Origin: Dyella sp. OK004
GTDB lineage: Bacteria > Pseudomonadota > Gammaproteobacteria > Xanthomonadales > Rhodanobacteraceae
Direction of reading: 5' to 3'
NCBI RefSeq assembly: GCF_900114495.1
Contig: NZ_FOZI01000002.1
Coordinates: forward strand, 992,001-1,056,000
Length of the DNA stretch: 64,000 nt
Made by a program: the position numbers and the translations under genes. Position 1 is the first letter of the stretch, and every line of letters begins with the position of its first letter. The notes beneath the pieces were generated by a model that worked only from the letters and a program-made list of their open reading frames with translations, searched no databases and was not told the DNA's origin. This document shows positions 39,323 through 47,730 of this stretch, piece after piece.

Positions 39323-40408
39323 TCAGGCAAGAGCCAGCACGTCGCCAAGCAGTGCCTGCGCCGTCACTTCCGGCCCTGCGCCCGGCCCCTGGATTACCAG
39401 CGGCTGCGAGTGATAGCGGGTGGTGGTGAGGGCGAACTGGTTGTCGGTGCCGTAGAGGCGTGCAGCGGGGTGTGTGACCGGCACTTCGACCAGTCCGACG
39501 CGCGCGCGGCCGCGCTGGTTGAGTCGGGCCAGGAAACGCAGCACACCGCCGCGCGCTTTCGCTTCCGCGTGACGCGCAGCCAGCGGTGCATCGAGTTCTT
39601 CGAGGCGTGACAGAAAGGTCTCGGTGTCAACCCCGCGCAGCGCTTCGGGCACCAGACTTTCCACTTCCACTTCATCGGTACCCAGGGCGAAGCCGGCGTT
39701 GCGCGCGATGATCAGCAGCTTGCGTGCTACGTCTTCGCCGGAAAGGTCAGAACGCGGATCCGGCTCGGTGTAGCCGAGCTTGCGCGCCTCACGCAGCAGC
39801 GCGGAAAACGGCTGACTGCCGTCGTACTGGTTGAACAGATAGGACAGCGAGCCGGAGAACACGCCTTCGAGCGTGAGCAAAGCGTCGCCACAGCCGCGCA
39901 GGCGGCGCAGGGTGGAGAGAACCGGCAGGCCGGCACCCACGGTCGCGGCGTCGCCGTAGCGCGCGCCATTCGCGGTGGCTGCCTGCAGTGCGCGCCAGCC
40001 CGGCAACTCGCCGCCAGCCAATGCCTTGTTGGCCGTGACCACGTGATAGCCCTTGGCCAGCCATTCCGAGTGACGCGCAGCAAGGCCCGCATTGGCCGTC
40101 GCGTCGATGATCACCTTGACCGCCGCACCGCTGGTGTCGAGCGCGGCCAACAAGGTGGCGTCGTTACGCGGATCGCCAAGCTGCTTGAGCTTTTCGCGCA
40201 GGCCGCGATCGGCCAGCTGCGCGGGATCAGTCTGCTGGCGGCGTGAATTGGCGGCGCCGACCAGGCGCAATGAAGCAGCTGCCGGCGTGTTCAACAGCTT
40301 GAGCAGCGCACCGCCAACCACCCCGGTGCCGAGCAGCACCATGGCGATGCCCGATGCGGCAGCAGGTGCCGTAGCTGGCGCTGACGCTTCGGCGAGCACC
40401 GCGCTCAT
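39323..40408 (-). CDS. hom: Homoserine dehydrogenase
   Basis: A 361-residue NAD(P)-dependent enzyme converting aspartate semialdehyde to homoserine. The Rossmann motif is VLLGTGVVGGALL (about 24-36), the NKALAGGELPGW segment follows the central strand, and the catalytic region GVFSGSLSYLFNQYDG / GYTEPDPRSDLSGEDVARK matches the C-terminal half of E. coli ThrA/MetL. It lacks the N-terminal aspartokinase and any C-terminal ACT domain, so allosteric control by threonine seems absent. The ATG overlaps the metB stop by ATGA (40405-40408). It is the third gene of the metX-metB-hom operon. Confidence 0.93.
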   Translation of the reverse strand: MSAVLAEASAPATAPAAASGIAMVLLGTGVVGGALLKLLNTPAAASLRLVGAANSRRQQTDPAQLADRGLREKLKQLGDPRNDATLLAALDTSGAAVKVIIDATANAGLAARHSEWLAKGYHVVTANKALAGGELPGWRALQAATANGARYGDAATVGAGLPVLSTLRRLRGCGDALLTLEGVFSGSLSYLFNQYDGSQPFSALLREARKLGYTEPDPRSDLSGEDVARKLLIIARNAGFALGTDEVEVESLVPEALRGVDTETFLSRLEELDAPLAARHAEAKARGGVLRFLARLNQRGRARVGLVEVPVTHPAARLYGTDNQFALTTTRYHSQPLVIQGPGAGPEVTAQALLGDVLALA

Positions 40409-41595
40409 GCAAGCACCCGGCGTTTCGACGCCAGCGAAACCTGTGCACGGACCAGCGCGGCATCGAGATCGCGCAGCAGATCGTCGCCGTCCTCGATGCC
40501 TACGGACAGACGCAGCAGGCTGTCGGCGATGCCGGCGGCGCGGCGCGCCTCTGGTGCCATCGATGCATGGGTCATCGACGCGGGATGAGCGATGAGACTT
40601 TCCACACCGCCCAACGACTCGGCCAGCGAGAAGTACTGCAAGCCGTCGACGAAAGCCTCGATCTGCGCCACATCGCCTTCCAGCTCGAAGCTGAGCATGG
40701 CGCCGAAGCCTTGCTGCTGGCGTGCCGCCAGCGCGTGGCCCACGTGACTTTCGAGGCCCGGATAGTAGACCTTGCGAATGGCCGCATGGCCGTCCAGACG
40801 CTCGGCGATGCGCACTGCGTTTTCCTGGTGCTGCCGCAGGCGCACGTTCAGGGTGCGCAAGCCACGCAGCGTGAGGAAGCTGTCGAACGGTGCGCCGGTG
40901 AGGCCGTTGCAGTTGCCCCACCACTTGAGCTGCTCGGCAACCGCCGCGTCGCGCGCAATCACCGCGCCGCCGACCACGTCGCTGTGACCGTTGATGTACT
41001 TGGTGGTGGAGTGCACTACCACGTCCGCGCCCAGCACGAGCGGTTGCTGCAGCGCCGGCGAAAGGAAGGTGTTGTCCACCACCACCAGTGCGCCGACGGC
41101 ATGCGCGGCCTGTGCCACATGGCGGACATCGGTAATACGCAACAGCGGATTGGACGGCGTCTCCACCCACACCAGCGCGGGCTTGGACGCGAGGCCAGCG
41201 GCCAGTGCCACGCTGTCGGTGAGGTCGACAAACTCGACGCTGAAGCGCCCTTTCTTCGCCCACGCATCCAGCAACCTCCAGGTGCCACCGTAGCAATCGT
41301 GCGCAGCGAGGATCCTGGCGCCGGCCGGCACCAGTTCCAGCGCCAGCGCCACCGCGGACATGCCGCTGGACGTCACCACCGCACCCGCTCCCTGCTCCAG
41401 CTCCGCCAGCGCATTACCCAGCTGATCGCGCGTGGGGTTCCCGCTGCGCGAGTAATCGTAAGCGCGCTTGCCGCCCAGCCCTTCAAAGGCGTAGTTGGTC
41501 GACAGATGCAGCGGCGGCACCACGGCGCCATGCTGGGTATCGGACTCAATGCCGGCGCGCACGGCGCGGGTACAGGGGGCGGGGGTGTCGCTCAT
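40405..41595 (-). CDS. metB: Cystathionine gamma-synthase family PLP enzyme
   Basis: A 396-residue Cys/Met-metabolism PLP enzyme. K199 in DVVVHSTTKYINGHSDV forms the internal aldimine, and YDYSRSGNPTRDQL and VWVETPSNPLLRITD are family signatures. It joins O-acyl-homoserine with cysteine to give cystathionine. The position after metX and before hom supports a gamma-synthase rather than a lyase. MetB and O-acylhomoserine sulfhydrylases are hard to tell apart by eye, so direct sulfhydrylation is a possible alternative. The ATG at 41595 lies 67 nt after the metX stop. Confidence 0.9.
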   Translation of the reverse strand: MSDTPAPCTRAVRAGIESDTQHGAVVPPLHLSTNYAFEGLGGKRAYDYSRSGNPTRDQLGNALAELEQGAGAVVTSSGMSAVALALELVPAGARILAAHDCYGGTWRLLDAWAKKGRFSVEFVDLTDSVALAAGLASKPALVWVETPSNPLLRITDVRHVAQAAHAVGALVVVDNTFLSPALQQPLVLGADVVVHSTTKYINGHSDVVGGAVIARDAAVAEQLKWWGNCNGLTGAPFDSFLTLRGLRTLNVRLRQHQENAVRIAERLDGHAAIRKVYYPGLESHVGHALAARQQQGFGAMLSFELEGDVAQIEAFVDGLQYFSLAESLGGVESLIAHPASMTHASMAPEARRAAGIADSLLRLSVGIEDGDDLLRDLDAALVRAQVSLASKRRVLA

Positions 41596-41662
41596 GGTGA
41601 ATCTCCGTGTCGTGCTTGGTGCCCGGTGATGCGGATCGGGCGATGCGTGGGGACGTAAAGGG

Positions 41663-42700
41663 TCAGGCCAGGGCTTCGCGCAACAGCGGCGCAAGGCGGT
41701 CGGTTTCCTTGAGGAAGGCGTCGTGTCCGTAGGGCGACTCGAGCACTTCCAACGTGGCGGGGCCGTACAGGCGGCGCTGCAGTTCGCACAGGTCGGACAG
41801 CGGCACTAGGCGATCGGACGGAAAGCCGATCAGCGTGGCCGGCGCGGCAACCTGCTCGGGTGTCACGTCATGCAGGTCGATGGATTCGGATAGAGCCAGG
41901 AAGCGCTCGACGTCGAAGCGTTCGACGAAGCTGCGACCTGCGTGCTCCAGGTAATCCTCGACCGGGAAACGGAAGCGGCCGTCACGGAATTCCGGCGCGG
42001 CGGTGAAGCGGCGCGAGAACTCCTCGCTGCCACGATACGTGGTCATGGCCAACTGACGGGCCAGCGCCAGCGCCTGTTCCGGCTGGCCGGTGCTCTGGCC
42101 GAGACGCACGATGCCGCGCTGTACCGAGCGCTGCGCCGTGGCGAGGGGATGCGGACGGTGCGCGCCGGCGAGCAGCACGAGGCGGCCCAGTGCATAGGGA
42201 TGACGTGCGGCGAAGGCGAGCGCAGCCATCGCGCCGTAGGAGGAGCCGATGAAGGCATGCACACGGCCGATACCCAGCGACTCGACCAGGGCGGCCAGCG
42301 CGTCGGCCTGATCCTCGCTGGAGATGGCGTCGACGCCTTCGAGATCGGCCGGGACAATCCAGTCGATCGACAGTACGCGGTAGCGATCCAGATCCACCGG
42401 CAGGCCGGCGCCCACCACCTCCTGCCACCAACCCTGCGCCGCCTCGCTATCCAGCGCGACCACGTCGCGGCTGGCCGAGATGCCGCCCTGCACGATTACC
42501 GTCGGCGCATCCGGCGCACCGCACCACAGATAACGCACATCGACTTCGCAGGGACGGCTGCCGTACTTGGGCGTGAAACGCACGCGGCGGGAGCTGCGTT
42601 GGGTGGCGAGGCGTTGCGTGGTGAGATCCGAGCGCGCGGCACCCGCCAACGTACAGTGGCTGGATGGGCTGGTCGGAACGGGCTGGGGCTGGCTGGACAT
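41663..42700 (-). CDS. metX: Homoserine O-acyltransferase (MetX type)
   Basis: A 345-residue alpha/beta-hydrolase-fold acyltransferase that activates homoserine in methionine synthesis. The nucleophile S154 lies in FIGSSYGAMAAL, the Asp in IGFPSDRLVPLSDL and the His in SPYGHDAFLKE. Several gammaproteobacterial MetX proteins use succinyl-CoA rather than acetyl-CoA; the sequence alone does not let me decide. The ATG at 42700 follows CCGGAGAG, a ribosome-binding site that can pair with a complementary CTCTCCGG in the leader. The gene heads the metX-metB-hom operon behind a SAM-I riboswitch. Confidence 0.93.
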   Translation of the reverse strand: MSSQPQPVPTSPSSHCTLAGAARSDLTTQRLATQRSSRRVRFTPKYGSRPCEVDVRYLWCGAPDAPTVIVQGGISASRDVVALDSEAAQGWWQEVVGAGLPVDLDRYRVLSIDWIVPADLEGVDAISSEDQADALAALVESLGIGRVHAFIGSSYGAMAALAFAARHPYALGRLVLLAGAHRPHPLATAQRSVQRGIVRLGQSTGQPEQALALARQLAMTTYRGSEEFSRRFTAAPEFRDGRFRFPVEDYLEHAGRSFVERFDVERFLALSESIDLHDVTPEQVAAPATLIGFPSDRLVPLSDLCELQRRLYGPATLEVLESPYGHDAFLKETDRLAPLLREALA

Positions 42701-42777
42701 CACGCTCTCCGGTTGGCATCGCCCTGCGGATCCGGAGAGGTCGCCACGCCTCCGGCAGAGCATGCCGGCGCGAAGCT
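42701..42777 (-). promoter_or_regulatory. Expression platform between the SAM-I riboswitch and metX
   Basis: The metX ribosome-binding segment CCGGAGAG (just before the ATG) is perfectly complementary to CTCTCCGG about 30 nt upstream. CTCTCC can instead pair with GGGAGAG, which includes the 3' strand of riboswitch helix P1. This gives mutually exclusive structures that hide the start site when SAM holds P1 together. There is no T run, so control of translation is more likely than termination. Confidence 0.6.
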
Positions 42778-42893
42778 CTCCCATCTCTCGGCGGCGCTGT
42801 AGCGCCTCCGCAGGAGTTGGCACCGTCGCGGAATGGATCCCGCAGGTTGCCCCGGCTTCAAAGGGCCTGTCCCTCAGCCGGTCTCGATGAGTA
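42778..42893 (-). ncRNA. SAM-I (S-box) riboswitch
   Basis: The minus strand contains the conserved S-box core in order: CTCATCGAGA at the start of P1/P2, GAGGGACAGGCCCTTTGAAGC (joining and kink-turn region), GGGGCAACC, then GACGGTGCCAACTCC, and a P4 hairpin GGCGCTACAGCGCC. The 3' strand GATGGG pairs with CTCATC to close P1. It lies directly upstream of metX, the classic target, and should switch the operon off when S-adenosylmethionine is plentiful. Confidence 0.92.
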
Positions 42894-42954: not shown

Positions 42955-43071
42955 ATTTCGCGACATTGGCCAAAATCCTATAGCCGTCCAAAGGCCCGGA
43001 AGGCGCATGGCTGCGCCATATGCGGCCTCCCGCGAGGCGTTATGATGGGCTTCCCCTCAAGCCTCCCCGCC

Positions 43072-43809
43072 ATGACCGACCACCAGGCCTCCAGCCCCGA
43101 AACCCTGCAAACCCTGATCCGCCAGGACGGCTTTGCCTTTGTTACGCCCGAAACCATGCGCCGCCTGCTGGCACCCACCGGCCATCTGGTGGACTGGACC
43201 GCGTTTGCCGCCAGCTGGGAGCAGTTGGGGCCGGATACCTACCTGGCCGCCAAGGGCCGCCACCGCCGGCGCCGCCATGCAGTGTTCTCGGCCGGCCCGG
43301 CCGGCGGGTTCACGCGCCCGCCGCATCAGCCGCACTATCAGAGTCTCGACTACAACAGTCTGCAGGGCGGTATCGAGCGCTGGTTTGAGCCGGTGCTGCC
43401 AGCTATTGCCGATGGTTCGAGCATGCAGTGCATCCTGCATTTCTGTCGCGACTTCTTCGGCACACTCGCGCCGTCCGTTCGCCAGTGGCATGTCGAGGTG
43501 CATCAGTTCCGTATCGAGGCGCGCATCGGCGAGGCCGGCGAGCCCACCCCCGAAGGCGTCCATCGCGACGGTGTGGACTATGTGCTAGTGCTGCTGATCG
43601 ATCGGGTGAATATCGAAAGCGGCACCACCAGCATCCACGCACCGGATGGCGAGCTATTGGGCAGCTTCACGCTCACCCACCCGCTGGACGCCGCCCTGGT
43701 CGACGATGCCCGCGTCTGCCATGGCGTCACTGCCGTCACACCGCACGACCCCACCCAGCCGGCGCATCGCGATGTGCTGGTGGTGACGTTCCGCGCGGTC
43801 GAAAGCTAG
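43072..43809 (+). CDS. 2OG-Fe(II) dioxygenase family protein, amino-acid-hydroxylase-like
   Basis: A 245-residue protein with the iron facial triad H164-x-D166 (EGVHRDGVDY) and H217 (ARVCHGVTAV), and R241 near the C-terminus to hold 2-oxoglutarate. The layout resembles the 2OG-Fe dioxygenase family that includes bacterial isoleucine/methionine-type amino-acid hydroxylases. The substrate is not known, but its position divergent from the methionine operon, sharing a control region with met boxes, makes a sulfur or branched amino acid plausible. An ATG at 43042 or 43045 is an alternative start. The nested inverted-repeat element follows about 30 bp after its stop. Confidence 0.8.
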   Translation: MTDHQASSPETLQTLIRQDGFAFVTPETMRRLLAPTGHLVDWTAFAASWEQLGPDTYLAAKGRHRRRRHAVFSAGPAGGFTRPPHQPHYQSLDYNSLQGGIERWFEPVLPAIADGSSMQCILHFCRDFFGTLAPSVRQWHVEVHQFRIEARIGEAGEPTPEGVHRDGVDYVLVLLIDRVNIESGTTSIHAPDGELLGSFTLTHPLDAALVDDARVCHGVTAVTPHDPTQPAHRDVLVVTFRAVES

Positions 43810-43839
43810 GAAGCAGACGAACCGGCGAGGCCGTCTCCA

Positions 43840-44128
43840 GGGCCCCTCAGATCTGTTCCACGCAGGCGTCACCGTTGTTGTTTGCGCGCAGCTCGCCGTT
43901 GCGTTGGCGAAGGCAGACTGGATGTCTGTCGAGACAGCGCGGCGGCGAGCTGCGCGCAAACAACAACGGCCCAACCTTTTGTTTTCAGATGCGTGGGTGA
44001 TCTCCCGAAGGCGCGCTGCGGTCACCGCGCGGCTCGACCTGACGGCCAGTCAGGCGCTTCACCACGCGGTGACCGCAGCGCGCCTTCGGGAGATCATGCC
44101 GCCTGCGTGGAACAGATCTGAGGGGCCC
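43840..44128. repeat. Three nested perfect inverted repeats (cloverleaf-capable element)
   Basis: Outer arms of 29 bp (43840-43868 and 44100-44128) are perfectly inverted. Inside them are two perfect hairpins: 27-bp arms 43872-43898 / 43943-43969, and 32-bp arms 43998-44029 / 44065-44096. The two loops contain smaller stems (CAGAC/GTCTG and CCTGAC/GTCAGG). A 28-nt AT-richer spacer (43970-43997) joins the two hairpins. As single strand it would fold into a three-way junction. No coding sequence or T-run terminator is apparent; origin and role are unknown. Confidence 0.9.
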
Positions 44129-44179
44129 AGGCTATGCTGCACCCGCTACCCGTTCCGGGTGTTACTCAGGGGAACCCAC

Positions 44180-44533
44180 GTGTCCACCATCGCCAGTCTC
44201 GTGATCGCCCTCGTCGCCTTGCTACACCTGTGGTTCCTGGTGCTGGAGATGTTCCTGTGGGACAAACCGGCGGGGCGCCGGGCTTTCGGCACGACCGCAG
44301 AGTTCGCCGCACAGTCGAAAGTGCTGGCCGCCAATCAGGGGTTGTACAACGGCTTTCTGGCGGCAGGTCTGATCTGGGGCTTGTGGCTCGGCGACAGCGG
44401 CATGCCAGTGAAATACTTCTTCCTTATCTGCGTACTGATCGCCGGCATCTATGGCGGGCTTACAGCCAGCCGCAAGATTCTCTGGATCCAGGCACTGCCC
44501 GCAGCACTCGGCCTTGTCCTGCTTTGGCTTTGA
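44180..44533 (+). CDS. DUF1304 family membrane protein
   Basis: A 117-residue protein with four membrane helices at about 3-25, 48-68, 74-93 and 99-117. The N-terminal TIASLVIALVALLHLWFLVLEMFLW and the NQGLYNGFLAAGLIWG segment match the DUF1304 family, whose function is unknown. The start is a GTG at 44180, with AGGGGAA eight bases upstream. Reading further upstream in frame would run through the inverted-repeat element, which I regard as non-coding. The M24 peptidase gene follows 22 nt later, so the two may form an operon. Confidence 0.85.
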   Translation: MSTIASLVIALVALLHLWFLVLEMFLWDKPAGRRAFGTTAEFAAQSKVLAANQGLYNGFLAAGLIWGLWLGDSGMPVKYFFLICVLIAGIYGGLTASRKILWIQALPAALGLVLLWL

Positions 44534-47161: not shown

Positions 47162-47419
47162 ATGCGCACTGAACTCGTCACTACCCTGAAACGCCAGGCA
47201 ACGGAGCTTCTCGCTGAGCTGGAGCGGGACCGCGAACCCATCCTGATTACGCAGCACGGCCTGCCCAGCGCGTATCTGGTCGATGTAGCATCTTTTGAAA
47301 AACTGCAGCAGCGCATGTCGCTGCTGGAAGGCATCGCCCGGGGCGAACGTGCGCTCGAAGAAGGCCGCACCCTGACCCAGTCCCAGGCCAAGACGCGCAT
47401 GGCGCGATGGCTGAAGTAA
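47162..47419 (+). CDS. Type II antitoxin, Phd/YefM family
   Basis: An 85-residue protein with the Phd/YefM fold: ITQHGLPSAYLVDVASFEKLQQ is the typical strand-helix segment following the N-terminal DNA-binding part. The C-terminal region ([22 protein letters not shown]) would wrap the toxin. It neutralises the ParE/RelE-type toxin encoded downstream, whose start lies inside the antitoxin gene (13-nt overlap). The palindrome just upstream suggests autoregulation. The antitoxin-first order is standard. Confidence 0.88.
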   Translation: MRTELVTTLKRQATELLAELERDREPILITQHGLPSAYLVDVASFEKLQQRMSLLEGIARGERALEEGRTLTQSQAKTRMARWLK

Positions 47420-47730
47420 CCCGCCACGAGATTATCTGGACCGAGCCCGCGCTGGCCGAACTGGACGAGATCGCCGATTACATTGCACTGGATGATCCAC
47501 AGGCCGCACGCGGCCTGGTGCAGCGGGTTTTCGCCCATGTCACCCAACTGGCTGACCATCCGGCTAGCGGATCGAAACCTCCCGAACTGAAGGGCTGGCG
47601 CTATCGTCAGATCATCGAGCCTCCCTGCCGGGGCTTCTACCGAGTCGATGCCGGCAAGGTCGTCATCCTCTACGTCATGCGCAGCGAGCAACTTCTGCGG
47701 TCCAGCCACCTGACAGACCGGGGACCCTGA
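47407..47730 (+). CDS. Type II toxin, RelE/ParE superfamily
   Basis: A 107-residue toxin. The N-terminal [22 protein letters not shown] and central [36 protein letters not shown] fit the RelE/ParE fold; ParE members poison gyrase, RelE members cut mRNA on the ribosome. The pattern of the first helix and the PPCRGFYRV strand leans towards the ParE-like group, but the target cannot be decided by eye. It overlaps the antitoxin gene by 13 nt. Being chromosomal and next to prfC, it may be stabilising or simply domesticated. Confidence 0.88.

Follow-up and report, generated by a model that had tools for sequence, protein, structure and literature searches.

A MITE family with IS5-like ends and two inverted, oppositely stranded hairpins in Dyella and related Rhodanobacteraceae

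The window considered here is a stretch of 64,000 nucleotides from Dyella sp. OK004 (contig NZ_FOZI01000002.1, positions 992,001 to 1,056,000), and the element under study lies between two genes of its + strand. A 2OG-Fe dioxygenase gene (43042..43809, PF10014) reads toward the element and a DUF1304 gene (44180..44533, PF06993) reads away from it. A sequence-only reading of this DNA had described three nested perfect inverted repeats in the gap, and these are real. The outer, terminal arms (43840..43868 on the + strand and 44100..44128 on the - strand) match exactly across 29 bp and enclose two hairpins with exact arms of 27 bp (from 43872 and 43969) and 32 bp (from 43998 and 44096); outer and inner repeats together give the 176 bases in exact arms that had been counted. 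With mismatches allowed each of the three repeats reaches 35 nt at 91-97% identity, the left terminal repeat doing so at 94% when taken as 43837-43871. With borders placed as in the 109 catalogued elements described below, the window copy spans 287 bp (43841..44127). It is flanked by CCAG on the left (43837..43840) and CAGG on the right (44128..44131), in the place of a YTAR-type target duplication that is imperfect here, although CAG adjoins the copy on both sides.

Hairpin H1 (43872..43969, +) carries at its tip GCAGACTGGATGTCTG (43913..43928, +; searched for as GVAGACTGGNYGTCTK), and the inverted hairpin H2 (43998..44096, -) carries at 44041..44051 a tip that reads GACTGGCCGTC on the - strand. 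The two are separated by an AT-richer centre with a short CCC/GGG stem (43970..43997). A 311-nt stretch over the element folds as single-stranded DNA at -154.3 kcal/mol (shuffle mean -69) and as RNA at -254.2 (shuffle mean -134.9); none of 100 shuffles folded as well in either case, which places the structure of the window copy far beyond chance.

The sequence-only reading had noted the lack of T-run terminators, a coding frame, and a nearby recombinase. There is no terminator-like site in 43750-44250, nor any sigma-70-like site in that interval, and Pfam searches of eight neighboring proteins returned no recombinase, transposase, or reverse transcriptase. Open reading frames called mechanically run across the element, none of them known as a gene. 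No Rfam family matches the element at gathering score, and its 14 sub-threshold matches are mostly to miRNA families. The sole gathering-score match in the window is a SAM riboswitch (RF00162, 81.8 bits) at 42778-42893 on the - strand, downstream of which lie a frame for an alpha/beta hydrolase (41663-42823, -) and, beyond it, a gene of Cys/Met metabolism (40405-41694, -). If the hydrolase frame is taken at its longest, it starts within the riboswitch, and the real start is therefore probably further in. Two short overlapping + strand frames elsewhere in the window (47162-47419 and 47407-47730) resemble, by eye, a type II toxin-antitoxin pair.

The window copy belongs to a family of repeats in which the arms co-vary from copy to copy; it is not a unique, static sequence. 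An element search followed by end finding recovered 12 full-length copies from the same genome, 66-100% identical over their aligned parts, along with a 46-bp remnant. Among six genomes of the genus four match the element at E ≤ 1e-5. The richest, G004, has 45 matches, several at contig ends and some of them self-complementary second matches, and it holds 101 end-like sites at no more than one mismatch, compared with none for a reversed control. None of the five congeners (G001-G005) has the element in the orthologous gap between the 2OG and DUF1304 genes, these gaps being too diverged to display an exact empty site. Across the wider family a pattern needing both hairpin tips was found in 34 of 197 genomes and 6 of 26 genera. 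With both tips required to be intact, named Dyella and Rhodanobacter records carry the element, among the matches listed; the tip scan also returned, among the matches listed, records of distant phyla, mostly with weak folds. One contig titled Candidatus Eremiobacteraeota (L129) has its element at the same coordinates as contig C239 of the family genome G187, and the two are probably the same contig under a misleading title. Plasmid and phage collections held no match to the element.

These copies bear directly on what had been proposed from the single locus. The suggestion of a non-autonomous mobile element is borne out by the 12 full-length copies with common borders and by the empty orthologous gaps; the same structure occurs elsewhere with different arms and loops; and occurrence at this one place, which would have spoken against a mobile element, is contradicted by copies in the same genome, in congeners, and in other genomes of the family. 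From the lack of mismatches the sequence-only reading had also concluded that the element is of recent origin or actively conserved. The arms are indeed perfect, but that inference needs change, since arms co-vary across copies of the family.

End-bounded elements were collected into a catalogue of 111, from which two (L140 and L190) were dropped as chance occurrences to leave 109. Because end similarity was the rule of entry, the shared ends of these elements are in part a selection effect and not independent evidence. The length of 85 of the 109 is 280-289 bp; the commonest form begins GGATGCTCTGATCTATTCC, and GGCRACGCTGATCAAGTATC-like ends mark a second subgroup. Single-hairpin forms exist (L034 and L223), and G004 has seven elements (L212-L217 and L230), 70-73 bp long, with both ends and no hairpins. 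These ends-only elements have YTAR-like flanks and make up a sub-family without hairpins that has proliferated in Dyella subtropica. The existence of copies with one or no hairpin implies that the hairpins are not needed for mobility, for which the element ends appear to be sufficient. In three Dyella species (L107, L161, and L163) a second, small palindrome, centered on CATGGATG and with a GAGGAGCGAGGAAG-like tail, sits within a hairpin adjoining the TGGNY tip; it has the look of a REP-type sequence with a preference for that spot. In sum the element is short, has no transposase gene, ends in inverted repeats (exact 29-bp arms on the 287-bp window copy), and is dispersed, with element-free orthologous gaps, all as in a MITE. 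The mobility of the family is plain from its dispersed copies with common borders and from the orthologous gaps that lack it.

Target sites offer evidence of another kind, as the four bases on each side of an element played no part in catalogue selection. Elements sit in YTAR-like sites, and the flanking 4-mers are equal in 33 of 109, as compared with a mean of 13 and a maximum of 23 over 500 shuffles. Most of the equal flanks are CTAG/CTAG (17) or TTAA/TTAA (15), a YTAR target with 4-bp duplication of the IS5 type. Target-site duplication, a feature of MITEs, is thus found across the family; in the window copy, where a check for it had been proposed, it is inexact (CCAG/CAGG). E. coli IS5 duplicates Py-T-A-Pu, most commonly CTAG, and also uses looser sites such as CAAG, according to the part of the source available (PMC5493358). 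The bases adjoining the element ends are complementary to each other in 106 of 109 elements.

The element ends point in the same direction. A match to PF01609 is present in 97 of the 197 family genomes, and 30 such loci were fetched. Four genomes (G023, G082, G143, and G022) have an IS of approximately 1.15-1.2 kb whose transposase-proximal end, GGATGCTCTGATTTATTCC, agrees with the common MITE form at 18 of 19 bases and with the end of the window copy at 13 of 19, the latter counted by eye. Three of these four IS have CTAA or TTAG duplications, and the transposase from G023 belongs to the IS5 family (NF033581, 350.6 bits against a cut-off of 140). By eye the IS end in G023 and G082 resembles the H2-side MITE end up to GGCATSAT, where H2 starts, and the right terminal repeat of the window copy (44100..44128) is like the transposase-proximal end of the relatives' IS5-family IS. 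With these IS (NF033581, IS5_4) and with E. coli IS5 the MITE shares the end GGATGCTCTGATNTATTCC of its common form, the YTAR target, and the 4-bp duplication. It differs in having no transposase, in its length of 287 bp rather than roughly 1.15-1.2 kb, and in the two inverted hairpins inside. The asymmetric duplications CTAA/CTAA and TTAG/TTAG also set the two apart, occurring in none of 109 elements and in four of the seven IS copies with both flanks available.

IS5-like ends together with YTAR duplications make mobilization in trans by an IS5-type transposase the best reading; the likeness of the ends and the choice of target both speak for the IS5 type of the element. Any particular helper transposase is putative. 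No PF01609 transposase was found in the six genus genomes, nor, at E ≤ 1e-60, an IS5 helper-like protein, and among the family genomes a helper-like protein is present in 6 of the 34 with the exact element pattern and 30 of the 163 without it (Fisher p = 1). An element mobilized in trans does not require a helper in the same genome, yet its absence weakens the helper assignment. Helpers may be transient, multi-copy IS may have dropped out of the draft assemblies, or a different transposase may do the work. Further points against the IS5-type reading are the imperfect flanks and the 13 of 19 end match of the window copy and, across the catalogue, the complementary adjoining bases and the lack of asymmetric duplications. 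An IS630-type helper, suggested by the TA in the flanks, was considered and set aside (PF13358 in none of the six genus genomes), as was a RAYT helper (Y1_Tnp in three of six, two of them over the cut-off, and none in G004). A search for an autonomous partner by pairs of terminal repeats 0.7-6 kb apart gave one weak pair (L193) in the loci examined. It had also been proposed that the element moves as a folded single strand; the inverted-repeat ends, the YTAR-type duplications, and the IS5-type end similarity point instead to a DDE transposase.

The two hairpins share a tip, AGACTGGNYGTCT, in opposite orientation, on the + strand for H1 and on the - strand for H2, and their consensus sequences agree only in part outside it. 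All 14 exact matches to the tip motif in the Dyella sp. OK004 genome lie within the 12 catalogued copies, and none lies outside the element. Strand constraint was assessed by mapping 87 full-length copies onto the fold of copy L001. Over these copies the outer stem has 38 G.T and 44 A.C cells; H1 has 257 and 65, and H2 has 23 and 215. A single G.T pair close to the H1 tip, almost invariant across copies, accounts for 78 of the 257; leaving it out gives H1 counts of 179 and 65. Counted by pairs, H1 favors G.T by 26 to 5 and H2 favors A.C by 23 to 5. The structure was taken from a + strand fold, which favors G.T, and the A.C excess of H2 therefore runs counter to the bias. Both directions hold when copies are dereplicated to 52, 20, and 7, at which sizes the outer stem has G.T and A.C in the ratios 22/18, 11/5, and 2/1. 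Folding both strands gave the same picture: H1 is more stable on the + strand in 85 of 87 copies and H2 on the - strand in 81 of 87, and among the 20 dereplicated copies the figures are 19 and 17, respectively.

Compensatory changes, for which a check had been suggested, are abundant. Read on its own strand, H1 has double compensatory changes at 27 of 37 pairs (18 copies) and H2 at 29 of 43 (19 copies). None of 500 shuffles scored as high on any of five covariation measures, and the signal collapses when pairing partners are slid. One copy, L112:5786, was at first oriented backwards; it remained in the 87-copy counts, as did L224 and L005, while alignment A5 omits it together with L224 and alignment A6 omits it alone. 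In L224 the H1 tip, and in L005 the H2 tip, is inverted relative to the other copies, as if recombination between arms had flipped the loop. Orientation was also scored in 27 elements with two hairpins that had been identified independently of the tip pattern, in which 46 of 47 scored tips point inward; the other 7 of their 54 tips, not scored, include the H1 tip of L224, inverted by eye. L143 and L149 come from two records but seem to be the same insertion at orthologous positions, which therefore enters both the 109 and the 87 twice; they differ by one base, too little for testing compensation after insertion.

Each hairpin thus combines compensatory changes beyond the controls with a constraint on one strand, a pattern expected of structured RNA that does not by itself separate RNA from single-stranded DNA. 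Because the constraint on H1 falls on one strand and that on H2 on the other, what is conserved is a pair of separate hairpins and not one cloverleaf. The pattern suggests that each is maintained independently, on the strand that leads inward from its end of the element. The earlier idea of a structured RNA would suit the single hairpins but is not supported for a cloverleaf acting as one functional strand.

The reading that best accounts for the whole, and which is judged likely, is that of an IS5-type MITE moved in trans into YTAR sites and carrying two strand-maintained hairpins that most likely act as RNA. The MITE is, or was, presumably moved by an IS5-family DDE transposase. Between its ends lie two hairpins, each about 100 nt long and inverted relative to the other; each would be maintained in single-stranded form on the strand that runs 5' to 3' inward from the nearer end. 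The constrained strand is that of a transcript entering from the side of that hairpin. Whichever neighboring transcript entered the element would thus form a single hairpin in the right orientation, with a UGGNY loop; protein binding, cleavage by RNase III, or termination or stabilization of the transcript may follow. Action as RNA in incoming transcripts is the preferred interpretation, and within the MITE reading its chances are put at about even. Gene context was scored from crude ORF calls (75 of 109 elements had enough flank and one gave no call), with 46 of 74 copies between tandem genes, 21 between divergent genes, where no transcript is expected from either neighbor, and 7 between convergent genes. 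Enrichment between convergent genes, expected of a terminator or 3'-end role, is not seen (7 of 74), and such a role is not favored. The share of divergent sites and the scarcity of convergent ones, like the lack of promoter- and terminator-like signals at the window copy, count against the RNA role, and the lean of the outer stem toward G.T at 20 dereplicated copies (11 to 5) is a further point against the reading as a whole.

Two alternatives keep the MITE and differ on the hairpins; an RNA role is preferred to single-stranded DNA, and this in turn to a purely mutational origin. The hairpins may act as single-stranded DNA, such as is exposed during lagging-strand synthesis or in an intermediate of transposition, with a host or element protein reading the TGGNY loop. 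The symmetric, inward layout is that of two transposon ends, DNA hairpins tolerate G.T pairs too, and the strand asymmetry suits RNA and single-stranded DNA alike. Set against this are the hairpin-free copies of G004, in which hairpins are dispensable for mobility, the failure of the search to turn up a partner protein, and the lack of a Y1 (RAYT-type) domain in G004, the genome with the most element matches of the six; this alternative is considered unlikely, if worth keeping in view. A mutational account, in which arm-to-arm correction of quasi-palindromes and strand-biased cytosine deamination generate the pairing and the asymmetry in functionless hairpins, is viewed with slightly more doubt. 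The complementary bases adjoining 106 of 109 elements fit such correction, a C to T change is a possible reading of many G.T cells, and inverted tips do occur, as in L005. Blanket correction would nonetheless erase the internal loops and TGGNY tips, which reappear at matching positions in copies that have diverged, and the inward direction of nearly all scored tips in elements found without the tip pattern also speaks against it.

The remaining alternatives are far less probable than either of these. A single structured RNA, or a single folded DNA strand, made up of the entire cloverleaf would suit the very stable fold of the complete stretch, but opposite strand constraints and elements with one or no hairpin make it very improbable. 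An attC site consists of paired RYYYAAC and GTTRRRY core sites. The attC-like substrate proposed earlier finds one RYYYAAC at 43969 on the + strand and no GTTRRRY, leaving the core motifs unpaired; a retron-like substrate is unsupported, with no reverse transcriptase among the eight neighbors tested. An element of REP/REPIN type moved by a RAYT (Y1) transposase would suit the inverted hairpin doublet, which resembles the REPIN layout, but not the terminal inverted repeats with target duplications, and Y1_Tnp occurs in only three of six genus genomes and is lacking from element-bearing G004. Taken together these attC, retron, and REP-like possibilities are given still less credence. Perfect hairpins are a known source of assembly artefacts, and chimeric reads had been named as a possible refutation; the assemblies of many species carry the element with different flanks, and an artefact is scarcely credible.

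Folded, transposon-derived repeats are familiar from other bacteria. In the Correia/NEMIS elements of Neisseria the stem is formed from the element ends. These are MITEs with inverted-repeat ends of 24 bp and 5'TA3' termini, whose folded transcripts have been proposed as RNase III substrates, in the part of the source available (PMC2229807). The Dyella element differs in having two separate inner hairpins, for which RNase III action is only proposed. REPINs, or BIMEs, are inverted hairpin pairs dispersed in intergenic DNA. The Dyella element resembles them in its inverted hairpin pair and differs in its long inverted repeats and target duplications, with no Y1 in G004. QMITE2 of Coxiella is a MITE with a predicted stable transcript structure, and IS are given as the main source of MITEs; the available part of that account makes no mention of strand-specific constraint on inner hairpins in QMITE2 or other IS-derived MITEs (PMC10969869). 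IS-derived MITEs with foldable transcripts are thus already known, from what is available of these sources (PMC10969869; PMC2229807). The present family is undescribed in the open-access literature as judged by title or abstract opening among the matches listed, and co-varying inner hairpins of opposite strand within a MITE are, as far as could be seen, new.

A more specific proposal, held tentatively and with somewhat less than even confidence, is that this is a double-headed, RNA-bearing MITE, in which transcription entering from either side would always meet one structured RNA in the right orientation. Such symmetry could have evolved because the orientation of insertion is random. On this view H1, with its GUCGAG shoulder, and H2, with its CAAGCC shoulder, would be related from long ago and maintained apart since, with the UGGNY tip in common. 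The usual view of bacterial MITEs is that they are what deletion has left of insertion sequences. Opposite, strand-specific constraint on two hairpins would instead be a sequence signature of a non-autonomous element that maintains a cargo acting as a single strand. With 109 copies, compensatory changes, and variants that have no, one, or two hairpins, the family is ready material for testing the value of such hairpins to the MITE and to its host. If true, the double-headed proposal would imply a conserved RNA-binding partner across the Rhodanobacteraceae.
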